Assembly (NCBI GenBank): GCA_002707645.1
Contig: PANN01000003.1
Location: forward strand, 1-62,390
Length of the DNA stretch: 62,390 nucleotides
Source of the DNA: Fidelibacterota bacterium
GTDB taxonomy: Bacteria > Fidelibacterota > Marinisomatia > SCGC-AAA003-L08 > D37C17
Direction: 5' to 3'
Shown: in pieces, positions 42,376 to 54,673 of the stretch
Layout of the letters: each line of letters begins with the position of its first letter
Numbering within the stretch: position 1 is the stretch's first letter
Position numbers and translations under genes: made by a program
The notes under the pieces: generated by a model
Seen by the model: only the letters and a program-made list of their open reading frames with translations
Told to the model about the DNA's origin: nothing
Databases searched by the model: none

Positions 42376-42546
42376 ATGTGGTCAATGAGAAAATGGTCAT
42401 TTAAATATGTTAATTGGAGATTAACTACTGCCTACCCTGGAGGGTGGAAATATGCCCTCAAACATCCATTTGAATTAGTAAAAGATATATATAAATATTT
42501 AGTTTGGTGTCAAAAAATTGATAAAGATTTAAATAAACATGCTTAG
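42376..42546 (+). CDS. Small conserved-looking protein upstream of pyrD
   Basis: A 56-residue frame from ATG 42376 to TAG 42546 overlaps the pyrD start by 8 nt. It is unusually rich in Trp and aromatics (MWSMRKWSFKYVNWRL, then AYPGGWKYALKHPFELVKD), which is unlike chance translation of AT-rich spacer. A strong AAGGAG at 42342-42347 lies too far upstream of this ATG. The frame remains open back to it, and a GTT (42355) would sit at ideal spacing, so the real start may be a non-canonical codon. No family is recognised. Confidence 0.55.
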   Translation: MWSMRKWSFKYVNWRLTTAYPGGWKYALKHPFELVKDIYKYLVWCQKIDKDLNKHA

Positions 42547-43450
42547 TGTGAAAATAAAAGATATTGAATTTAATTCTCCAATTGTTGCTGCTAGCGGAAC
42601 ATATGGTTATGGTGATGAATTTGATACTTTCGTAGATTTAACTAAAATTGGTTGTATTATCACAAAATCTATAACTCTTGAAGAACGTAAGGGAAATCCA
42701 AGTCCAAGAGTCTATGAATCTGGATCTGGAATGATTAATGCAATAGGACTAGCTAATATGGGAGTAAAAAATTTTTGTAACTTAAAACTTCAAAAATTAA
42801 ATAAAATTAAAACTAAATTTATTGTAAGTGTGGCTGGTTCTAAAATTCAAGATTATATTGATGTCGTAAATCAAATTGAAGAATGTAACGGCAGTCATAT
42901 TGGATATGAAATCAATGTTTCTTGTCCAAATGTTAAAAAAGGTGGAATGGAATTTGGTGTTAATAAAGAAATAGCTGAAAAATTAACTGCGAAACTAAGA
43001 AAACTTACCAGCAAGCTATTAATTGTAAAGCTTAGTCCGAATGTTACGAATATTGAAGATATCGGTATTTCTGTTCAAAATGGTGGAGCAGATGCTATAA
43101 GTGCTGTTAATACATTCTCAGGTTTAGGAATTAATTATAAGACAGGCAATATGGTGCTAAGCACTATTTATGGTGGTGTATCAGGTCCACCAATCAAACC
43201 TTTGGCTCTTGCTAAGGTCCATAAACTATATAATGAAATTAAAATTCCTATTTTTGGTATGGGTGGTATTGTCTCTTACAAGGATATAATAGAATTTATA
43301 AGAGTTGGATCTAGTATGATTCAGGTAGGAACTTTAAACTACAGAGATCCTTCAAAAATAAATTCTTTGTATGATCAACTGAAATTGTTTTTAATTAAAA
43401 ATAAAATTGATTCTATTTCCGAATTAATTGGAAAACATTATGATATTTAA
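42539..43450 (+). CDS. pyrD: Dihydroorotate dehydrogenase, class 1B-like
   Basis: A 303-residue FMN enzyme oxidises dihydroorotate to orotate in pyrimidine synthesis. FNSPIVAASGTYGYGDEF is the class 1 N-terminus, and the catalytic base Cys129 lies in NVSCPNVKKGG, typical of class 1 (class 2 uses Ser). FMN-binding segments IFGMGGIVSYKDIIEFI and MIQVGTLNY follow. Class 1B normally pairs with PyrK, which is not in the window. The start could alternatively be the GTG six nt downstream. Confidence 0.92.
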   Translation: MLSVKIKDIEFNSPIVAASGTYGYGDEFDTFVDLTKIGCIITKSITLEERKGNPSPRVYESGSGMINAIGLANMGVKNFCNLKLQKLNKIKTKFIVSVAGSKIQDYIDVVNQIEECNGSHIGYEINVSCPNVKKGGMEFGVNKEIAEKLTAKLRKLTSKLLIVKLSPNVTNIEDIGISVQNGGADAISAVNTFSGLGINYKTGNMVLSTIYGGVSGPPIKPLALAKVHKLYNEIKIPIFGMGGIVSYKDIIEFIRVGSSMIQVGTLNYRDPSKINSLYDQLKLFLIKNKIDSISELIGKHYDI

Positions 43451-43892
43451 AGTTTGTATAATTTCTATTTTATTTTTTATTTCGTGCACCGTATCTCCTA
43501 GATATAGTGGTGGAGGAAGCCATGTAAAATCAAAGACTAAAAATTTAAAAATCAAAACAGTAAATAAAGGCAATGTTCTAAGGGGCGTCTCTTCATGGTA
43601 TGGACCAAATTTTCATGGAAAATTAACGGCCAATGGAGAAGTTTATGATATGTATGGAGTAACAGCTGCTCACAAAACCCTAACTTTAGGTACTGTAGTT
43701 AGAGTTACAAATTTAGATAATGAAAAATCATTAATTTTAAGAATTAATGATAGAGGCCCATATGTTGATGGAAGAATATTAGATTGCTCATTTGGAGCAG
43801 CAAAAAAATTAGGTTTTCATGAAAAGGGTACAGCAAATGTTGAAATTAAAATTATTGAAGAAGGAGATGGTGTATACATGCACCATAAATAA
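43440..43892 (+). CDS. rlpA: RlpA-like septal ring lytic transglycosylase lipoprotein
   Basis: I choose the ATG at 43440 (150 residues), since it gives a compact lipoprotein signal (MIFKVCIISILFFISC, Cys16); an in-frame ATG lies 12 nt upstream. A double-psi beta-barrel RlpA domain spans ~50-145 with GVSSWYGPNFHGKLTANGE, TAAHKTLTLGT and the catalytic-region Asp in RINDRGPYVDGRILD. RlpA cleaves glycan strands lacking stem peptides. No SPOR domain is attached here, unlike proteobacterial RlpA. It overlaps the pyrD stop. Confidence 0.88.
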   Translation: MIFKVCIISILFFISCTVSPRYSGGGSHVKSKTKNLKIKTVNKGNVLRGVSSWYGPNFHGKLTANGEVYDMYGVTAAHKTLTLGTVVRVTNLDNEKSLILRINDRGPYVDGRILDCSFGAAKKLGFHEKGTANVEIKIIEEGDGVYMHHK

Positions 43893-43896
43893 TTGA

Positions 43897-44712
43897 ATGG
43901 AAGAAAATAAGAAACCTAGAACTTTAGTAAACTTAATTGGAGCTCCTTTGTTATTAAGTATTATTTTTTTTGGCGGTCCTGTATTTACTCTATTTATATT
44001 TATTATAATTTTTATAGGAACTTTTGAATTCAATAATATGGTTAAAATAAAATCTTATTCATTAAATTTATATATTTTTTTCACTTTGTATTTGATTTTT
44101 TTATTAAATCATTTATTTCCCCTATTTTCTAATCACCAATATAATTATTTTATTTTATTATCTTTTATTTGCTTAGCTTTTTCATGCTTATTAATTAAAA
44201 ATAAACTTAAAAATTTATATTATAGGATTTTAGCCTTTGTTTGGATTGGACTATTATTTCAGCAGGCAATTTACATAAGGAACTTACCAGAAATTGGTTT
44301 TAAACTAGTACTTTGTATGTTCATATCAGTATGGGTAACAGATTCTTTTGCATTTATATTTGGCTCAAAATTTGGAAAATCTAAAATATTACCGTCAATT
44401 AGCCCAAAAAAAACTTGGGTTGGATTTATAGCTGGCTACATTGCATGTACTATATTTATTTGCTTCTTATTTATTTCAGATTATTTTTATAATACTGCAT
44501 TTGAATTTAATCTAATTGATGTTTTGATTTTAGGTGTAATATCTGGAATTCTTGGTCAATTTGGTGATTTCTTTGAATCTTATTTTAAAAGGTATTTTTC
44601 GGTCAAGGATTCAGGTACTTTACTTCAAGGCCATGGTGGTTTTCTAGATAGATTTGATTCTTTGTTATTTGTTGTTCCTTTATTTTCACTTTATCTCCGT
44701 TTTGTTTTATGA
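43897..44712 (+). CDS. cdsA: Phosphatidate cytidylyltransferase
   Basis: A 271-residue membrane enzyme makes CDP-diacylglycerol from phosphatidate and CTP. About seven or eight hydrophobic segments span the protein. The C-terminal signature appears as VKDSGTLLQGHGGFLDRFDS, with the DRFDS acidic motif. Preceding blocks include WVTDSFAFIFGSKFGK and SPKKTWVGFIAGY. It overlaps the next gene by 4 nt (ATGA). Confidence 0.93.
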   Translation: MEENKKPRTLVNLIGAPLLLSIIFFGGPVFTLFIFIIIFIGTFEFNNMVKIKSYSLNLYIFFTLYLIFLLNHLFPLFSNHQYNYFILLSFICLAFSCLLIKNKLKNLYYRILAFVWIGLLFQQAIYIRNLPEIGFKLVLCMFISVWVTDSFAFIFGSKFGKSKILPSISPKKTWVGFIAGYIACTIFICFLFISDYFYNTAFEFNLIDVLILGVISGILGQFGDFFESYFKRYFSVKDSGTLLQGHGGFLDRFDSLLFVVPLFSLYLRFVL

Positions 44713-46523
44713 ATAAAAAATTAAAAGATATAAAAGTTATTTTAGCTACAGATTGTGGTTCGACAACCACTAAAGCAATTTTAATTGAGTTCATCAATGA
44801 TGAATATAGATTGACTTTTCGTGGCGAGGCTCCGACAACTGTTGAAGCTCCATTTGAAGATGTCACTTGTGGTGTTATTAATTCTATTATTGAACTTGAA
44901 GAATTATCAGGTAGAAAAATATTGATTGATGATAAAATTATTTCCCCTATAGATAATAATGCGGGAGTTGATTTATATATATCAACAAGTTCTGCAGGTG
45001 GTGGACTGCAGATGATGGTTGGAGGAGTAGTTAAAAATATGACTGGTGAAAGTGCCCAAAGAGCTGCACTTGGCGCAGGTTCAATTGTAATGGATATAAT
45101 AGCTTCTAATGATGGCCGAAAATACCATGAAAAAGTTCAAAAAATAAGACAATTGCGTCCAGATATGATTTTGTTATCAGGAGGTGTTGATGGAGGAACA
45201 AAATCTCATGTAGTTGAATTAGCTGAGATAATTAAAACTGCCAATCCTAATCCCAGATTAGGCAATAGTTTTAAGATACCAATAATTTATGCAGGAAATA
45301 AAGATGCTATTGATGATATTAAAAAACGATTAGAAGATATAACTGATTTAAAAATCGTTGATAATATCAGACCTACACTTGATCAAGAAAATTTAAAACC
45401 AAGTAGAGATAAAATTCATGATTTATTTATGGAGCATGTAATGGCTCAAGCACCTGGTTATAATAAATTGTTAACATGGACTGATCACCCTATAATTCCA
45501 ACACCCGGAGCTGTAGGAGAAATAATTAAAAAAATTGCGTTTAATGAAAATATTTCTGTAGTTGGAGTAGATATAGGAGGTGCTACAACTGATGTTTTTT
45601 CAGTTTTTAATAAAAAATTTAATAGAACGGTAAGCGCTAATTATGGAATGAGCTATTCTATATGTAATGTATTAGCTGAAACAGGAATTAAAAATATTTC
45701 TAGATGGCTATCCTCAAGTATTGATGAAAAAAATTTAACCAATCGTATTGCCAATAAAATGATAAGACCAACTACAATACCGCAGACTTTAGAAGAATTA
45801 ATAATTGAACAATCTATTGCTAGAGAAGCGTTGAGGTTATCATTTATCCAACATAAAGAATTTGCAGTTTCGTTAAAAGGTATTCAACAAGAAAGAACAA
45901 TTTCAGACACTTTTGATCAGACTATGAGTGGTGAGACCCTAGTTAATATGAATGATTTAGATATGATAGTAGGTTCAGGTGGAGTGCTTTCTCATGCTCC
46001 TAGAAGAGAGCAGGCATATAGAATGCTTGTTGATGCATTCCTACCAGAAGGAGTAACAGAAATCGCTGTTGATTCTATATTTATGATGCCGCAATTAGGT
46101 GTCTTATCTGAAGTACACGAAAAAGCAGCAGTTGAAGTATTTAACAAAGATTGTTTGGTAAGATTAGGTACTTGCATTGCACCAGTAGGTTCAAATAATA
46201 ATAGTACTGAAATTTTAGAATATTCTTTTGAATTTAATAATAAAAAAGTTGAGGGTATATTAAAATTTGGAGAGATTGTTTTAATTGATGTTAATTATAT
46301 ATCAGTTAAAACCAAATTAGTAATGAAAGAAAATTATACAATTAATGGATTAAGTGAATTTCAAGACGATATTTATGGAGGTGAAGTAGGTATAATGCTA
46401 GATGGAAGAGGGCGACCTTTTGATTTTAATGCATTTAATAAAGATTCTATTAAAGATTGGTCAATACAAACTAATGAATATCCAATTATAGATTCAGTAA
46501 CAACTTCGGATTCTTTAAAATAA
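44709..46523 (+). CDS. MutL/GlmL-family actin-fold ATPase-like protein
   Basis: A 604-residue ASKHA-fold protein has three nucleotide-binding blocks: phosphate-1 DCGSTTTK (~15-22), phosphate-2 GVDIGGATTD (286-295) and an adenosine block GSGGVLSHAP (~422-431). The closest family I recognise is MutL/GlmL, encoded between glutamate mutase subunits in clostridia and thought to support that B12 enzyme. No mutase subunit, cobalamin enzyme or methylaspartate ammonia-lyase lies nearby. Instead it heads seven packed genes encoding four membrane proteins. I therefore treat it as an ATPase of an uncharacterised membrane complex; automatic naming as glutamate mutase would mislead. Confidence 0.78.
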   Translation: MNKKLKDIKVILATDCGSTTTKAILIEFINDEYRLTFRGEAPTTVEAPFEDVTCGVINSIIELEELSGRKILIDDKIISPIDNNAGVDLYISTSSAGGGLQMMVGGVVKNMTGESAQRAALGAGSIVMDIIASNDGRKYHEKVQKIRQLRPDMILLSGGVDGGTKSHVVELAEIIKTANPNPRLGNSFKIPIIYAGNKDAIDDIKKRLEDITDLKIVDNIRPTLDQENLKPSRDKIHDLFMEHVMAQAPGYNKLLTWTDHPIIPTPGAVGEIIKKIAFNENISVVGVDIGGATTDVFSVFNKKFNRTVSANYGMSYSICNVLAETGIKNISRWLSSSIDEKNLTNRIANKMIRPTTIPQTLEELIIEQSIAREALRLSFIQHKEFAVSLKGIQQERTISDTFDQTMSGETLVNMNDLDMIVGSGGVLSHAPRREQAYRMLVDAFLPEGVTEIAVDSIFMMPQLGVLSEVHEKAAVEVFNKDCLVRLGTCIAPVGSNNNSTEILEYSFEFNNKKVEGILKFGEIVLIDVNYISVKTKLVMKENYTINGLSEFQDDIYGGEVGIMLDGRGRPFDFNAFNKDSIKDWSIQTNEYPIIDSVTTSDSLK

Positions 46524-47629
46524 TGTCAAAATCATATACTCCAGGATTAAAAATTATAGAAAATGCTCTAATTAAAAAGAAAAGAATTCTTCCTTTATCA
46601 GGTCAATTACATGTTGATAAAAATGATTTGGTTAAATCAGACCAAATAGTTGCTTCTGCTAATATACCTGGAAATGTTCAAATGATTAATGTCTCCAATA
46701 AATTAAATATTGATCCTAACCAAATATTTGATTCCATGTTGTGTAAAGTAGATCATGAAGTAAAAAAAGGGCAGGTTATAGCGAGGAATAAAGGATTATT
46801 TGGTTTTTTTAAAACCGAATTAAAATCTCCAATGGATGGTATCTTAATTAATGTTTCAGACGTAACAGGTCAAATTATAATATCAGAGAAACCAATTCCA
46901 ATAGAGGTTGATGCATATATAGATGGAAGAATTAATGAAGTATATGAAAAAGAAGGAGTTTTGGTTACTGCTCAAGGTGCATTGATTCAAGGTATTATTG
47001 GTGTCGGAGGTGAACAAAAAGGTACTTTGAAAATATTAGAAAGTGAAAAAGAATTAGATAATCTAGATTTAAAAAGTGATCTAATTTGTGTTATGAGTTC
47101 TTATTTAGATTATAAGATGTATAAAAAAATTAATCAATTAGGTTTGAAAGGTATTATTTGCGGTGGAATTGATTATGAATCTCTAACAAAGATTTTAGGT
47201 TACCCGCTTGGAGTTGCAATTACTGGTTCGGAATCTGTTACAACTGTAGTTGTTACTGAAGGCTTTGGTGATATAAATATGTCAGAAAGAACCTTCCAGT
47301 TATTGAATAAGTACAAAGATTCATATTGTTCAATTAATGGCGCAACACAAATAAGAGCTGGAGTAATGAGACCAGAGGTTATAATTAATATAGATTCAGA
47401 TAATAAAAATATTATTAATAATAATAATGAATCATTAATATTAGTTAATTCCAAAGTTAGAATTATAAGAGATCCCTTTTTTGGTCTTATAGGTACTGTT
47501 TCTAATTTGCCTAAAGATTTAGTAAAAATGAAAACTGAAACAATGGTTAGAGCTGCTGAAGTGACTCTTAAAGATGGTAGTAAAAAAATAATTCCAAGAG
47601 CAAATTTAGAAGTTATTTTATCAGATTAA
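46523..47629 (+). CDS. Unknown protein with lipoyl-like motif and KOW-like C-terminus
   Basis: A 368-residue soluble-looking protein starts on the last base of the MutL-like gene. A segment at ~75-120 reads like half of a biotinyl/lipoyl sandwich hybrid (VKKGQVIARNK, then KSPMDGILINVSD). The middle has glycine-rich alpha/beta stretches (ITGSESVTTVVVTEGFGD). The last ~55 residues (IRDPFFGLIGTV, then DGSKKIIPRANLEVI) resemble a KOW/SH3-like barrel. No catalytic residues stand out. Its fixed place between the ATPase-like gene and membrane genes suggests an adaptor. Confidence 0.6.
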   Translation: MSKSYTPGLKIIENALIKKKRILPLSGQLHVDKNDLVKSDQIVASANIPGNVQMINVSNKLNIDPNQIFDSMLCKVDHEVKKGQVIARNKGLFGFFKTELKSPMDGILINVSDVTGQIIISEKPIPIEVDAYIDGRINEVYEKEGVLVTAQGALIQGIIGVGGEQKGTLKILESEKELDNLDLKSDLICVMSSYLDYKMYKKINQLGLKGIICGGIDYESLTKILGYPLGVAITGSESVTTVVVTEGFGDINMSERTFQLLNKYKDSYCSINGATQIRAGVMRPEVIINIDSDNKNIINNNNESLILVNSKVRIIRDPFFGLIGTVSNLPKDLVKMKTETMVRAAEVTLKDGSKKIIPRANLEVILSD

Positions 47630-47646
47630 TTGTATTAATTTATGAT

Positions 47647-47910
47647 ATGAATGATGTACATAAAATCATATCCAATTTAGCTGATGATATAGTTCAAAGA
47701 GGTTTATCTGTTCCAGCTGTGTTTTTTTTAGAAAGCACAAAGTATGTATCTTTTATAGGAAGTCAATTCCTTGTCTTTTTAGGTCCCATAGCTACATGTT
47801 TTATAAATAATAAAAAATATTACAATTTTTCTACTATTTTAGAAGAAAAATCAAATATAGATTTTCTGATTAGCGAAATAGAAAGAATAACACCTAAGAT
47901 TAAATCATGA
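47647..47910 (+). CDS. Small soluble protein of unknown function in the MutL-like operon
   Basis: An 87-residue protein with no clear transmembrane helix has a mildly hydrophobic middle (FIGSQFLVFLGPIATCF) and a helical C-terminus. No known family is recognised. Its stop overlaps the DUF6754-type gene by 4 nt (ATGA), so it appears to be an integral member of the operon. Confidence 0.55.
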   Translation: MNDVHKIISNLADDIVQRGLSVPAVFFLESTKYVSFIGSQFLVFLGPIATCFINNKKYYNFSTILEEKSNIDFLISEIERITPKIKS

Positions 47911-48773
47911 CTCAATATATAAAATATGTGCTCATTCCTTTTTTAACTCTCTTGTTCTATTTCTTTTTTCCTTTTCCTCTTTTTTTAGAAGGCAATGAAA
48001 CAACTTTTGTTTGTGTGATTATTCTATGTTTTATTGTCGAATATTTTATTGAAAAAGCTAAGAATGGTGATAAAATATATATGCGTCCAATTGCTGCAAT
48101 TAAAGCAATGGAAGAGGCTGTAGGAAGAGCTACTGAAATGGGTAAGCCAGTTTTATATGTTCCTGGTATTTCAAGTCTAGACCAAATTGATACAATATCA
48201 GGTTTAACTATTTTGGGCCATGTAGCAGGTATGACAGCAGAGTATGATGCCGGGCTTCAAGTTCCTGTTTGTGTCCCTATTGTAATGGAAACTGCAAAAG
48301 AAACTTGCAAAGAAGCATATTTAAAAAAAGGGAGAAGTGATTTATATAGAAATGATATGGTTCACTATGTAACTGATGATCAATTTGCATATGCTGCAGG
48401 AGTTAATGGTATAATGTTACGAGAAAAACCAGCAGCAGTTTTTTTTCAGGGAAAGTTTTATGCTGAATCATTAATCCTTGCTGAGACTGGTAATTCGATT
48501 GGAGCAATTCAAATTGCCGGCACAGGATCCTCCTCACAAATACCTTTTTTTGTTACAGCTTGTGATTATACATTGATTGGTGAAGAATTTTACGCAGCAA
48601 GTGCATATCTTTCAGGGAGCCCTGAAATGTTAGGTAGTATAAAAGGACAAGATTATGTTAAAGTAGGCTGTATTATAATGATTGTGTTTGTATTTATATC
48701 TTCTGCATTAAATGGATATGGTATCATCAATTTTGACGTATCTTCATTGTTTAGGATTAATATTATAAGATGA
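47907..48773 (+). CDS. DUF6754-type membrane protein
   Basis: A 288-residue protein has two N-terminal transmembrane segments (~5-25, ~30-48), a large conserved soluble domain (~60-245) and one C-terminal membrane segment (~248-270). The soluble part contains glycine-rich blocks such as PVLYVPGISSLDQIDTISGL and GSIGAIQIAGTGSSSQIPFF-like stretches, which I associate with the uncharacterised DUF6754 family. No catalytic function is known to me. It is coupled on both sides by 4-nt overlaps. Confidence 0.65.
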   Translation: MTQYIKYVLIPFLTLLFYFFFPFPLFLEGNETTFVCVIILCFIVEYFIEKAKNGDKIYMRPIAAIKAMEEAVGRATEMGKPVLYVPGISSLDQIDTISGLTILGHVAGMTAEYDAGLQVPVCVPIVMETAKETCKEAYLKKGRSDLYRNDMVHYVTDDQFAYAAGVNGIMLREKPAAVFFQGKFYAESLILAETGNSIGAIQIAGTGSSSQIPFFVTACDYTLIGEEFYAASAYLSGSPEMLGSIKGQDYVKVGCIIMIVFVFISSALNGYGIINFDVSSLFRINIIR

Positions 48774-49573
48774 AAAGACAGCTAGCATATTTTTTAGTAA
48801 TTTTTATTGGGTTTTTGACATTATCAGGTCATTTCATAAATTATTCTCCTCTTAATAATTTCATTGATAATGATGCAACTCAGTGGTTTGATATAATATC
48901 AGGATTTGCAGCATTTTTGGGAGTTGTAAATCTTCTACAATTACATTTAAATAAAATTTCTCAAAAAAAAGATAATTGGAGATATAGTATTATTACACTG
49001 CTAGGTTTTTTAATAATGATATTTTTTGGTTTTATTTATAATGGTTCAAGTGTTGCTCTAGGTCCACATTTAAAAAAAGAAGGTTCAGCATTTTATTGGA
49101 TGTTTCAAAATATATATCTTCCATTAGGTGCAACAATGTTTGCTCTGCTTGCTTTTTTTGTAGCTTCTGCTTCTTATAGAGCGTTTAAAATCAGAAATTT
49201 TGAAGCAACATTACTGTTAATTTCAGGTGTATTTTTGATGATAGGTAGAGTTCCTATCGGTCAGTTGATACCATGGTGGATGAGTTTAGAAATTTATATT
49301 TGTCTTTTGTTTGCACTTATCGCAAATAGATTTAAGGATAAAAAGAAGATGTTGACTTTGCTTACCTTATCTCTTTTAATTTTTCCAATTTTAATTTTTA
49401 GTTTAAACTTGCATGATTTAGCGCTTTTTAAAATTCCAAATCTCCAGGAATGGATTATGGATGTTCCAGCAACTGCTGGTTCAAGAGCAATTATGATAGG
49501 GATTGCACTTGGTACTATAGCACAATCATATCGTATTATTACAGGAAGAGAAAAATCAATTCTTGGGGATTAA
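48770..49573 (+). CDS. Multi-pass membrane protein of unknown function
   Basis: A 267-residue protein has about seven hydrophobic segments (roughly 5-22, 40-58, 73-93, 108-128, 142-160, 165-185, 195-215). It ends with a conserved-looking cytosolic stretch (AGSRAIMIGIALGTIAQSYR). No family is recognised. Its start overlaps the DUF6754-type gene by 4 nt, and its stop shares one base with the next start (TAATG), so it is probably a subunit of the same complex. Confidence 0.6.
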   Translation: MKRQLAYFLVIFIGFLTLSGHFINYSPLNNFIDNDATQWFDIISGFAAFLGVVNLLQLHLNKISQKKDNWRYSIITLLGFLIMIFFGFIYNGSSVALGPHLKKEGSAFYWMFQNIYLPLGATMFALLAFFVASASYRAFKIRNFEATLLLISGVFLMIGRVPIGQLIPWWMSLEIYICLLFALIANRFKDKKKMLTLLTLSLLIFPILIFSLNLHDLALFKIPNLQEWIMDVPATAGSRAIMIGIALGTIAQSYRIITGREKSILGD

Positions 49574-50472
49574 TGGAATTATTGAATAAGATATTTATTA
49601 AATTAGGGCAATTAGATAGACGATTTATTTTTATTTTAATCGGATTATCTGTTTTGATACCACTTTTAAGACCTGATTGGATTAATATCCCAATAAAAAC
49701 GACCTCTAATTCAAGAATAGTTTTTGAGGAACTAAATAGTTTAAAGTCAGGGGATAAGGTTTTACTTTCTTTTGAATATGGAGCAAGTACAAAACCTGAA
49801 ATACATCCTATGTCAGTTGCTGTTTTGCAGCATCTTTTTTCTAAAGGCATCAAGGTTTATACCGTACCGTTATGGCCTGAAGGTTTAATGATGGCCAAAT
49901 TTGCAATTGAAGAGGTAGTCTCTTCGAATTTATTCAAAGTAAAAGAACATATTGATTATGTTAGTTTACCTTACAAGGCTGGAGGAGAGATTATAATTAG
50001 AGGAATTGCTACTGATTTAAGATCAATTTTTACTCAAGATATTAATAATACTTTATTAAGTGAAATACCTATGATGAATGGAGTAAATAACATTTCTGAT
50101 TTTGATTTCGTTTTTGATTTATCAGCAGGTGTACCCGGTAATGCTGAATGGGTTCAGTTTGCATGCGATGAGTATAACATCCCGCTATCTTCTGGTTGTA
50201 CCTCAATTATGGTTACAGATGCTATTCCATATGTGGAATCTGGTCAGATAAGAGGGATTTTAGCTGGTATGCCTGGTGCTGCTGAGTATGAACAAATAGT
50301 TTTTGAATATTTAAATAAAAATAGAAATAATAAATATTTAAATGAAAAAGTTTCAATATTACCTGGCAAAGCAACATCAAGAATGTCTGCACAATCTATA
50401 GCACATTTATTAATGGTCGTTTTTATTATATTTGGAAATATATCCTATTATTTAACTAGGAGAGATAAATAA
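49573..50472 (+). CDS. Membrane-anchored alpha/beta protein of unknown function
   Basis: I place the start at the ATG at 49573 (299 residues), which overlaps the previous stop as TAATG; the frame extends upstream but only through out-of-frame sequence of the preceding gene. One membrane segment near the N-terminus (~18-36) and one near the C-terminus (~272-292) bracket a soluble alpha/beta domain. That domain includes GDKVLLSFEYGASTKPEIHP, DFVFDLSAGVPGNAEWV and GILAGMPGAAEYE. No family is recognised. The topology mirrors the DUF6754-type protein, so both may present domains on the same side of the membrane. Confidence 0.6.
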   Translation: MELLNKIFIKLGQLDRRFIFILIGLSVLIPLLRPDWINIPIKTTSNSRIVFEELNSLKSGDKVLLSFEYGASTKPEIHPMSVAVLQHLFSKGIKVYTVPLWPEGLMMAKFAIEEVVSSNLFKVKEHIDYVSLPYKAGGEIIIRGIATDLRSIFTQDINNTLLSEIPMMNGVNNISDFDFVFDLSAGVPGNAEWVQFACDEYNIPLSSGCTSIMVTDAIPYVESGQIRGILAGMPGAAEYEQIVFEYLNKNRNNKYLNEKVSILPGKATSRMSAQSIAHLLMVVFIIFGNISYYLTRRDK

Positions 50473-51194
50473 TGGTTGAAATCATAGGTGTATGGTGCGC
50501 TGTTTTATTGACTCTAAGTATTTTTAGCTATTTATATGGAGATAACCCATTCTATAAAGCAGCTGAACATATCTTTGTTGGAGTATCAGCGGGGTATATA
50601 TTTACTATTACTTTTTGGGATACTATATGGCCAAACCTTTTTGGTAGATTATTCCCTACTATTGTTCAGGCAGGTTTTGATTTTGATGCCTCTTATATTT
50701 TTCCTTTAATTTTAGGTGTTTTCATGTTATTTAGATTGTCAAAAAAATATGATTGGTTATCTAGAATATCAATAGCCTATATTGTAGGAATGATGGCAGG
50801 CCTAAAGTTTTATGTATTCCTTAATTCAAATTTGCTTACACAAATCAAATCATCTGCCATTAATTTATCAGGTTCTTATTTAAGTATAATTAATGAATTT
50901 ATTGTTTTGGTTGGAGTAATAAGTGGATTGGTTTACTTTTTCTTTTCTAAGGAACATACGGGTGCAGTTGGAAAAGTTAGTAGAATAGGTGTTTATTTTT
51001 TAATGATTAAATTTGGAGCATCTTTTGGATTTGCTGTGATGGGAAGAATATCTTTATTGATTGGTAGATTTGAAGAGTTAATAGAGTATAGTAGTTTTAA
51101 ATACTACTATTCAACTCCAGCTATTTTAGTTCTTATGATAATAGTATTAACTTATTGGTCAATTAAAAATACAAATATTAACGAAAATAATTAA
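50472..51194 (+). CDS. Multi-pass membrane protein, last gene of the MutL-like operon
   Basis: A 240-residue protein has about six hydrophobic helices (near 5-20, 40-55, 75-90, 100-118, 138-157, 172-190, with a last one near 213-232). Conserved-looking features include [20 protein letters not shown] near the N-terminus and [18 protein letters not shown]. No family is recognised. The start shares one base with the previous stop. A 12-nt gap then separates it from the aldehyde dehydrogenase, which begins a different functional group. Confidence 0.6.
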
Positions 51195-51205: not shown

Positions 51206-52726
51206 ATGAGTGAATTATTAAAAAAGCTTTCAATTAAATCAGATAATTTTGGTGCATGCGTTGGAGGTAATGCGTGGCTTTCGACTACTTCAGAGGGAGT
51301 TATTGAATCTATTAATCCATCTGATGGAAAAACTATAGCGAGTGTTTATAAATGCTCTGAGTTAGATTATGAAAAAGTTTTATCTGATTCAAACAAAGCC
51401 TTTATTAAATGGAGAAAAGTACCAGCTCCTATAAGAGGACAGCTTATATTTGAGATGGGAAACGAGTTAAGGAAAAATAAAGATGCATTAGGAAGCTTAG
51501 TATCTTTGGAAATGGGAAAAATTAAAGCTGAAGGAGATGGTGAAGTTCAGGAAATGATTGATATAGCAGATTTTGCTGTTGGTTTATCAAGGCAGTTATA
51601 TGGATTAACAATGCACTCAGAAAGACCAGATCATAGGATGTATGAACAATGGCACCCCCTTGGAAATGTAGGAATTATATCTGCATTTAATTTTCCTGTT
51701 GCTGTTTGGGCATGGAATTCATTTATTGCTGCTGTATGTGGTAATGTTTCTATTTGGAAACCATCATCAAAGACCCCTCTAACAGCTATTGCTGTTCAGA
51801 ACATTTGCAATAAGGTGTTAGAAGATCATGGATATAAAGGAATCTTTAATCTAATTATTGGAAGTGGAAGTGTTATAGGAAATAAGCTGGTTAATGACAA
51901 AAGAGTTCCGTTAATCTCTGCGACAGGTTCCACAAGAATGGGAATAGATATTGCTCAAAAAGTTGCTAAAAGACTTGGTAAAACTATTTTAGAGCTTGGA
52001 GGAAATAATGCAATTATTGTTGATGAAACTGCATCGATGGATTTAGTAGTCCCCGCAATTGTTTTTGGAGCTGTCGGAACTGCTGGACAAAGATGTACAT
52101 CAACAAGACGTATTATTGTACATAAATCAATAATTGATAATTTATCTAATAAATTAGTAAATGCTTACAAACAAGTAAAAATTGGAAATCCTCTTGATAA
52201 AAATACACTTATGGGTCCATTGATTGATGAGGCAGCTACAAAAGATTATTTAGATGCAATAAAATCAGCTCTTGATGAAGGAGGCGAATTGTTGTGTGGT
52301 GGTAATATAATAAATGATAATGGTTTTTTTGTTGAACCAACAATTATTAAAGTGAAAAGTGATTTTAATATCATTAAAGAAGAAACATTTGCCCCAATAT
52401 TGTATGTTATGGAATATAATGATTTAAATGAAGCTATGGATATCCATAATAATGTTCCTCAAGGATTATCATCTGCAATTTTTACAAATAGTATTAAAAA
52501 CTCTGAGAAATTTTTGTCAGCAAGGGGCAGTGACTGTGGTATAGCAAATGTAAATATTGGTACCTCAGGAGCTGAAATTGGCGGAGCATTTGGAGGTGAA
52601 AAAGAAACAGGTGGTGGAAGAGAGTCTGGTTCAGATGCTTGGAAAGCATATATGAGAAGACAAACAAATACCATTAATTGGAGTGATGATCTTCCTCTCG
52701 CTCAAGGTATAAAGTTTGAACTTTAA
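51206..52726 (+). CDS. ALDH7-type aldehyde dehydrogenase (aminoadipate-semialdehyde dehydrogenase)
   Basis: A 506-residue NAD-dependent aldehyde dehydrogenase has Glu263 in ILELGGNN and the catalytic Cys297 in [12 protein letters not shown]. The GQRC(T/S)(T/S)TRR context and the early [14 protein letters not shown] block are typical of ALDH7 (antiquitin/AmaB), which oxidises 2-aminoadipate-6-semialdehyde to 2-aminoadipate. The second gene downstream is a lysine 6-aminotransferase, the enzyme producing that semialdehyde, so the substrate assignment is well supported by context. Confidence 0.9.
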
Positions 52727-52742
52727 AGAAAGGAAAAAAAAT

Positions 52743-53291
52743 ATGAAAAAGTATTTTTTATTAGTACTATTATTATCTTTGTGTTTCACACAAAGAGGTG
52801 AAAAATGGAAAAATAGATTCAAAAATGATTTTAATAAAGGTAACAGAGATAGATTGGAAATGCAAAAAATAAGTGATGAAGCAAGAATGCTTTTTTATCA
52901 AACAGAAAAATTGAGTCCTGAAAAAGCAGCCTTATATCAATTTGTTCTACCAATACCATTTGTTAATCTTGGATATGCATATTCAGATAGCTGGAATAAG
53001 AGTTTAAAGTGGGATGTTTTACTAATGGCATGTTTAGTAAAAGGCAATGATATTGATTGGGGTAATAATATTTCTGGTTTAGAAAATCCTGATAAAGATT
53101 TAGCTCAGAACTTAGAAAGTATGGTTTTAGGAATTGCTTTTTTAAAGATGTTTGATGCATACCAATCTGCTGAACAATATAATAATCAGCTTTTTAAAAG
53201 AGTCTTTAAAAGAAAACGACCTAGTTTTTCATTTAATTATTCCAAAGATAGCAAGTTAAGAGAATTAACAATGTCTTATCCAATTAACTAA
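52743..53291 (+). CDS. Small exported protein of unknown function
   Basis: I place the start at the ATG at 52743 (182 residues) because it follows AAAGAAAGGA and gives a signal peptide (MKKYFLLVLLLSLCFTQ); an in-frame ATG lies 27 nt upstream inside the dehydrogenase end. The mature part has a helical, mildly hydrophobic centre (LYQFVLPIPFVNLGYAYSDS) reminiscent of the glycine/proline turn in DUF5683-like proteins, but I cannot assign a family. It sits between two lysine-degradation genes without an evident link. Confidence 0.6.
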   Translation: MKKYFLLVLLLSLCFTQRGEKWKNRFKNDFNKGNRDRLEMQKISDEARMLFYQTEKLSPEKAALYQFVLPIPFVNLGYAYSDSWNKSLKWDVLLMACLVKGNDIDWGNNISGLENPDKDLAQNLESMVLGIAFLKMFDAYQSAEQYNNQLFKRVFKRKRPSFSFNYSKDSKLRELTMSYPIN

Positions 53292-53320
53292 TAAATTTAT
53301 TAAATTTTAAAAGGAAGAAT

Positions 53321-54673
53321 ATGAGTGTTGATCCAAAAAAAGTAAAAGAAATTCTTGATAAAAATATTTTAGCAGATGGTTTTGATCCAGTTATAGATTT
53401 AGAAAAAAGTCATGGTTCCTGGATTGTTGATCAAAGAAATGGAAGTGAATTATTGGATATGTTTTCTATGTATGCTTCAGGTTCTGTTGGTTATAATCAC
53501 CCTAAAATAGTCAATTCGAAAGATAAATTAGGCACTTTAGCTGTAAACAAAACAACTTTGTCAGACATCTATAATGTTTATTATGCTGAATTTATGGAGA
53601 CATTTAGTAAGTATGCAGTACCATCATATTTAAATAATGTATTTTTTATTGATGGTGGTTCCCTTGCTGTTGAAAATGCACTTAAGGTTGCATTTGACTG
53701 GAAAATAAGAAAAAACCTATCTAGGGGAATTGAAAATAAAGGACATAAGGTATTATATTTCAAGGAAGCTTTTCATGGCAGAAGTGGATACACACTGTCT
53801 TTGACTAATACAGACCCTGTAAAAACTATGTATTTTCCTAAGTTCGAGTGGATTAAGATAGATAATCCTTACATGACTTATCCTGAAACTGATGAATTAA
53901 TGGCTGAAGTTTTAAAAAACGAAGAACTAGCAATATTACAAATTAAAAAAGCTTTAAAAGATAATGCTGATGATATAGCTGCATTAATAATAGAACCTAT
54001 TCAGGGAGAAGGAGGAGATAATCATTTTAGATGTCAATTCTTTCAAATGTTAAGAGATCTTGCAGATGATAATGAATTTTTACTTATTTATGATGAAGTT
54101 CAAACAGGAATAGGAATTACGGGTAAAATGTGGGCTCATGAAAATTTTACACCTAAACTATGTCAATGTAATCCACCAATTAAAAAAGCTCCTATTCCCG
54201 ATATTATTTCGTTCGGTAAAAAAACTCAGGTTTGTGGAATTCTTGTTGGCGATAGAATTAATGAAGTCAAGGATAATGTATTTAAAAAATCCAGTAGAAT
54301 TAATTCAACTTTTGGCGGTAATCTTGTTGATATGTATAGATTTAAATTAATTTTAGAAATTATTGAAGAAGAGTCATTGCTGGAAAATTCTCTAACAATG
54401 GGAAAGTATCTTTTAAATTCAATTAATGATTTATCTACAGAATTTCCTGGTTATGTCACTAATCCTAGAGGTATTGGATTATTCTGTGCATTTGATTTGC
54501 CTTCAACCTTGGAGAGAGATAAATTTACAAGCTTAATGCTTGATAAGCGAGTAATGATTCTTGGGTCAGGTACTAAAAGTATAAGATTTAGACCTCATTT
54601 AAATGTTTTAAAAAGTGACCTGGACTTTTGTATGAATGCAGCGCATTCTTCTTTAAAAGAAATGCTTAATTAG
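53321..54673 (+). CDS. lat: L-lysine 6-aminotransferase
   Basis: A 450-residue class III PLP aminotransferase moves the epsilon-amino group of lysine to 2-oxoglutarate, giving aminoadipate semialdehyde. The cofactor lysine is Lys300 in ISFGKKTQVCG, a sequence context and position matching the mycobacterial LAT enzyme. FFIDGGSLAVENALKVAFDW and LLIYDEVQTGIG are the other family blocks. It pairs with the ALDH7-type dehydrogenase to carry lysine to 2-aminoadipate. A ribosome site AAAAGGAAG precedes the ATG. Confidence 0.9.
   Translation: MSVDPKKVKEILDKNILADGFDPVIDLEKSHGSWIVDQRNGSELLDMFSMYASGSVGYNHPKIVNSKDKLGTLAVNKTTLSDIYNVYYAEFMETFSKYAVPSYLNNVFFIDGGSLAVENALKVAFDWKIRKNLSRGIENKGHKVLYFKEAFHGRSGYTLSLTNTDPVKTMYFPKFEWIKIDNPYMTYPETDELMAEVLKNEELAILQIKKALKDNADDIAALIIEPIQGEGGDNHFRCQFFQMLRDLADDNEFLLIYDEVQTGIGITGKMWAHENFTPKLCQCNPPIKKAPIPDIISFGKKTQVCGILVGDRINEVKDNVFKKSSRINSTFGGNLVDMYRFKLILEIIEEESLLENSLTMGKYLLNSINDLSTEFPGYVTNPRGIGLFCAFDLPSTLERDKFTSLMLDKRVMILGSGTKSIRFRPHLNVLKSDLDFCMNAAHSSLKEMLN

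Follow-up and report, generated by a model that had tools for sequence, protein, structure and literature searches.

Seven adjoining genes and their conservation

The window analysed here is a 62,390-nucleotide (nt) stretch of contig PANN01000003.1, from the metagenome-assembled genome (1.2 Mb, 79% complete) of an uncultured ocean bacterium of the Neomarinimicrobiota (SAR406, Fidelibacterota). Seven open reading frames (ORFs) on its forward strand, here called A to G, run head to tail from 44709 to 51194. An earlier note on this DNA had described seven adjacent genes linked by overlaps of 1–4 nt or a short gap, and so they prove to be: A and B overlap by 1 nt, B and C are separated by 17 nt, and the overlaps at C/D, D/E, E/F and F/G are 4, 4, 1 and 1 nt. 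Gene A (44709–46523, 604 amino acids (aa)) encodes a MutL-type actin-fold (ASKHA) ATPase, which matches the Pfam MutL model PF13941 over its full length (positions 1–450 of 450, E 2e-124). Its nucleotide-binding motifs DCGSTTTKA, VGVDIGGATTD and VGSGGVLSHAP are conserved in 14/14 aligned A proteins. The soluble product of gene B (46523–47629, 368 aa) has a barrel-sandwich region, an unmatched middle and a KOW-like C-terminus. Gene C (47647–47910, 87 aa) belongs to no known family and is conserved beside A or D.

The remaining four genes encode membrane proteins, as the earlier note had it, and hydropathy predicts 3 transmembrane (TM) segments in D (47907–48773, 288 aa), 7 (perhaps 8) in E (48770–49573, 267 aa), 2 in F (49573–50472) and about 6 in G (50472–51194, 240 aa). 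The start of F is the ATG at 49573, whose first base is also the last of the E stop codon, and not the longer mechanical ORF start at 49450. D is a clear, full-length member of Pfam DUF6754 (PF20539; E 2.7e-111, 371 bits vs a cut-off of 27), a family without a described function, and is 87–90% identical to its nearest records, which come from Candidatus Neomarinimicrobiota genomes. The Pfam matches of E all lie below the cut-off, C, F and G of the window have none, and scans of E/G and F/B/C family members gave weak matches only. C, E, F and G are families without a curated name, and we know of no prior description of the A–G system. The open-access literature yielded no paper on DUF6754, most subscription papers being outside that coverage, and an open-access search on PF20539, PF13941 and the GlmL family returned nothing relevant.

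We scanned 199 Neomarinimicrobiota genomes, many of them incomplete and all related by descent, so that the association between genes does not represent independent events. DUF6754 was found in 121 genomes and a MutL protein over the cut-off in 127; both were present in 119, MutL alone in 8, DUF6754 alone in 2 and neither in 70 (phi 0.89). A and D therefore occur together in 119/129 genomes that carry either one, and gaps in the assemblies may account for part of the ten mismatches. The exact order A-B-C-D-E-F-G is kept in 42 of the 58 loci nearest to the window, nearly all of which are from Neomarinimicrobiota, some ending at contig edges and a few present via two collections. The other 16 are mostly truncated, lack A-B alongside or carry C ahead of A. 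Moreover, genomes of genus g18 of only 0.7–1.0 Mb, several of them >90% complete, retain the gene set, as would be expected of a basic function more than of a luxury.

The conservation extends well beyond this phylum. When genome contigs were scanned with the D alignment, at least 545 relatives were recovered, of which the best 80 came from Neomarinimicrobiota, Zixibacteria, Latescibacteria, WOR-3/Stahlbacteria, Eisenbacteria, Coatesbacteria, Fermentibacteria/Aegiribacteria, Riflebacteria and Planctomycetota. All seven gene families are present in eight further phyla, making about nine in total, and as the seven-gene arrangement is conserved across phyla it is far beyond chance. For 120/129 D genes with room downstream, E-F-G follow on the same strand. 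The earlier note had named conservation of DUF6754 beside MutL-like genes as the check on its membrane assembly. Gene neighbourhoods within and outside the phylum support a single co-conserved membrane system whose MutL-type ATPase lacks a mutase partner, as does the absence of glutamate mutase described below. We consider it very likely that A–G form one functional system.

In several Neomarinimicrobiota families (loci L032–L035 and L038) A and B are fused into one ORF of about 1000 aa, a strong indication that the two proteins act together. In one locus of this fused lineage, L034, D and E lie about 6.8 kb apart. A second, divergent type of A-B pair or fusion, found without D-E-F-G, occurs in WOR-3/Stahlbacteria, Fermentibacteria, Eisenbacteria and Zixibacteria (L138, L139, L140 and L141; A of 455 aa with B of 411 aa, or about 930–990 aa when fused).

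Anatomy of the membrane quartet

Structure models of D (pLDDT, the predicted local distance difference test, 87; pTM, the predicted template modelling score, 0.82) and F (AlphaFold2; pLDDT 96, pTM 0.92) each contain a six-stranded alpha/beta domain flanked by TM helices. The distribution of lysine plus arginine (K+R), taken from 58 D and 132–137 E/F/G sequences, puts these domains on opposite sides of the membrane. In D the K+R value is 0.27 after TM2 vs 0.15 before it, and 0.16 before TM3 vs 0.05 after it, which places the Rossmann-like domain in the cytoplasm. In F it is 0.22 before TM1 and 0.41 after TM2 vs 0.11–0.12 at the edges of the domain, which places this domain outside the cytoplasm, in the periplasm. 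D relatives in most other phyla begin with a signal-peptide-like segment followed by a fibronectin-III-like domain, which matches titin and other such domains in the PDB (best E 6e-4). A fibronectin-type ectodomain, as predicted from these matches, is consistent with the orientation of D read from charge.

The earlier note had drawn attention to a shared layout of N-terminal TM segment, soluble domain and C-terminal TM segment in two of the proteins. For D and F this stands as a fold class, given the two six-stranded models, but the likeness goes no further: D of the window has two N-terminal TM segments, charge places the domains on opposite sides of the membrane, and the homology suspected from topology received no support from profile-profile comparison. 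A suspected homology of E and G, based on topology and a mixed alignment, was likewise dropped when profile-profile comparison gave it no support.

Foldseek searches of the PDB with the D and F models returned no convincing fold match, only weak Rossmann-like ones, and PDB sequence searches with A, B, D and F found no convincing relative. The cytoplasmic domain of D has a weak likeness to the RCK domain of MthK (probability 0.75–1.0, TM-score about 0.3–0.37, E 0.035–0.12). D has no sequence relation to that protein, and the modelled likeness may hint at a Rossmann-like, possibly ligand-binding, domain.

Two variants of quartet proteins were also seen. A Zixibacteria copy of E (L109:14689–16461) is 591 aa long, with FG-GAP repeats appended or inserted, and a DUF6754 protein in L124 (9461–11842) is fused to an S49 peptidase domain and has no E-F-G behind it.

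One A-B pair and several quartets

Outside the Neomarinimicrobiota the quartet D-E-F-G behaves as a unit of its own. Stand-alone quartets occur far from A, and tandem series of two or three are found in L091, L095, L099, L109 and L114. Across 26 genomes from outside the phylum, DUF6754 is present in 1–7 copies (median 3; more than one in 20/26), whereas canonical A, of about 600 aa, is single in nearly all of them. This multiplication of quartets against a single A, together with the A-B fusion, the fibronectin-type ectodomains and the breadth of phyla, goes beyond what the earlier note had described. On a Coatesbacteria chromosome (L111:9578–20790) an inversion interrupts A, with two quartets of opposite orientation at the ends of the inverted segment, owing either to a real rearrangement or to an assembly error.

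We propose that A–G consist of two modules. The first would be soluble and shared, made up of the ATPase A with B as its constant companion and, probably, the small protein C. The second would be the membrane quartet, in which E and G form a membrane-embedded core, D exposes its Rossmann-like domain on the cytoplasmic face and, in most phyla, a fibronectin-type domain on the outer one, and F exposes its alpha/beta domain in the periplasm. A-B would dock on D from the cytoplasm, with a single unit shared among several alternative quartets in the cell, and the most likely job of the system would be to move or handle an envelope substrate. We give somewhat better than even odds to the step in which A-B assembles, opens or powers the quartet through a cycle of ATP binding and hydrolysis by A. 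A shared A-B unit acting on interchangeable modules would explain the fixed quartet, the fusable ATPase-fold pair and the presence of a single pair in genomes with several quartets. The model builds on observed co-conservation, the A-B fusion, gene dosage, conserved ATP motifs and a topology read from charge and domain content. Envelope genes adjoining the set in other phyla (ExbB-ExbD-TonB with a TonB receptor plug, and NfeD-SPFH) also speak for it. From these observations we infer a physical complex, the docking of A-B, its coupling to ATP and a transport-like role. In its full form the model holds that this is a type of envelope machine not described before, spread over Neomarinimicrobiota, other candidate phyla and Planctomycetota: an actin-fold ATPase of the MutL type, paired with a barrel-sandwich protein, would supply power to several four-protein membrane modules that can replace one another. 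To this form we assign a probability of roughly 40%.

We know of no described system that joins a MutL-type ATPase with such a membrane quartet. Group II energy-coupling factor (ECF) transporters have one energising module and several alternative membrane (substrate) modules per genome, and use ATPases of the ATP-binding cassette (ABC) type. A-B and the quartet may, by analogy, share this logic and not homology, as here an actin-fold ATPase would be paired with a four-protein module, and ABC ATPase models match none of the seven proteins.

Several observations weigh against the shared-ATPase model. The A-B pairs and fusions that exist without a neighbouring D-E-F-G are one. Conversely, G216 (locus L120), a genome of Zixibacteria recorded as a chromosome, has five DUF6754 genes and no MutL match, so that either quartets may function in the absence of A or the assembly lacks it. 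Gene neighbours beyond the seven vary widely, and Foldseek, having returned no convincing fold match for either D or F, gives no indication of an enzymatic or transport role. Lastly, the excess of quartets over A would also suit a shared assembly factor that does not energise them.

On this last account A-B, with C, would insert or mature D-E-F-G and take no part in the work of the quartet. A single A for several quartets, quartets without A in G216 and the accessory nature of MutL relatives all agree with it. In Neomarinimicrobiota, however, A usually heads the operon of one quartet with overlapping genes, an arrangement that fits a stoichiometric part but is no proof of one, and we regard a pure assembly factor as unlikely. 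Distinctly unlikely, in our view, is that the quartet acts in membrane-protein quality control or membrane domain organisation, along with SPFH, NfeD and S49-type proteases, and A-B in a chaperone-like manner. This would accommodate the NfeD-SPFH-CBS genes between two Zixibacteria quartets of L120, the S49 peptidase fusion of D, the TldD/PmbA protease pair beside C-A-B in L092 and the PmbA/TldD protein near an A-B fusion in L141, but each of these links comes from one or a few genomes and the examined neighbourhood of the window operon has no protease or SPFH gene.

A function for A–G would matter beyond this locus, as it would give one to DUF6754 and to four unnamed families (C, E, F and G) and reveal a new use of an actin-fold ATPase. 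D is present in about a quarter of the sampled Planctomycetota genomes (29/118), several of these genomes being on long single contigs, and laboratory tests may therefore be within reach.

Relatives of A and B, and the flanking genes

Members of family B weakly match RnfC_N, NQRA_N and biotin/lipoyl barrel-sandwich models in their N-terminal part, and the window B itself has weak RnfC_N and KOW Pfam matches. Apart from the weak KOW match, the remainder of the protein has no family match. These likenesses raise the idea of an ion pump driven by redox reactions and remotely resembling Rnf/Nqr, B standing in for RnfC/NqrA. Across 65 sequences, though, B has no highly conserved cysteine, nor does it match any flavin or Fe-S family; A is an ATPase-fold protein, and there is no ferredoxin or flavoprotein among the seven. 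A redox role for B was accordingly dropped, and we hold such a pump to be very improbable.

The MutL/GlmL ATPases known so far help soluble B12 enzymes. The earlier note had taken them to be accessories of glutamate mutase alone, which is too narrow, as relatives are also recorded from ornithine degradation (NCBIfam model Or-4). A shares the MutL domain and ASKHA nucleotide motifs of the GlmL and Or-4 proteins, yet is longer (604 aa vs about 450–460 aa), has a C-terminal extension absent from GlmL, and is constantly accompanied by B and membrane proteins instead of a mutase. It falls below all three curated NCBIfam cut-offs (TIGR01319, 162 vs 204; NF040745 for GlmL, 220 vs 475; NF040744 for Or-4, 223 vs 600), whereas two other MutL proteins of one Riflebacteria genome pass that of TIGR01319 with scores of 263 and 443.

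In a maximum-likelihood tree, whose long branches make exact placements unsafe, the operon A proteins cluster on short branches and are parted from GlmL by very long ones. Support for the branch that parts operon A from all others is moderate (92/94), and a third type, from the A-B fusions and pairs without D-E-F-G alongside, falls between operon A and GlmL. A does not group with true GlmL proteins, by cut-offs or by tree, and as judged from its sequence it represents a separate branch of the MutL family, linked across about nine phyla to a conserved, putative membrane complex. The fused Neomarinimicrobiota A of L032 groups with Planctomycetota A (100/100; compared with L131 and L143), which suggests horizontal transfer of the operon.

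GlmE, the adenosylcobalamin-dependent glutamate mutase, does not exceed the PF06368 cut-off in any of the 199 genomes, that of the window (79% complete) included, and at least some of the weaker GlmE matches fall inside methylmalonyl-CoA mutase genes. The claim that no mutase or cobalamin gene is present therefore holds for glutamate mutase and fails more broadly: the host genome carries a cobalamin-dependent methylmalonyl-CoA mutase. This enzyme is found in 192/199 genomes regardless of A; as it occurs almost everywhere, with A or without it, we rejected A as its helper. That A is a GlmL-type reactivase or accessory of a B12-dependent mutase, with the membrane genes incidental, as its membership of Pfam MutL and the methylmalonyl-CoA mutase of the host might suggest, is scarcely credible in light of the failed cut-offs, the missing GlmE, the indifference of the remaining mutase to A, the long branches and an association with D-E-F-G that spans phyla.

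The gene cluster has no clear edges. Upstream, a CdsA-like cytidylyltransferase gene (43897–44712, + strand) overlaps A by 4 nt, and downstream an aldehyde dehydrogenase gene (51206–52726, + strand) begins 11 nt past the end of G, and hence the transcript probably extends beyond the system. The former, a conserved neighbour in the phylum, likely shares the transcript of A–G, and we do not claim it as a member of the complex; the latter, conserved in this place in many Neomarinimicrobiota, is probably metabolic and outside the complex. PyrD, RlpA-like and CdsA genes upstream (42539–44712), and the aldehyde dehydrogenase with a class-III aminotransferase downstream (51206–54673), are likewise conserved Neomarinimicrobiota neighbours.

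In other phyla the flanks differ. Genes for ExbB-ExbD-TonB and a TonB receptor (plug) adjoin the set in WOR-3 and Fermentibacteria, and ExbB- and TonB-like genes adjoin B in one Zixibacteria locus. Glycine cleavage genes lie upstream of C-A-B in Fermentibacteria and of C-A in WOR-3; in Eisenbacteria they are found near A. TldD-type proteases are neighbours in Latescibacteria. We rejected the outside neighbours (glycine cleavage, TldD, ABC transporters and type IX secretion system tails) as parts of the system, since they vary by phylum. Many neighbours are envelope genes and none is universal, and therefore no substrate was assigned from them. In three Zixibacteria loci (L156, L157 and L163) a gene that we read by eye as a sugar-type solute-binding protein is divergent to the quartet.

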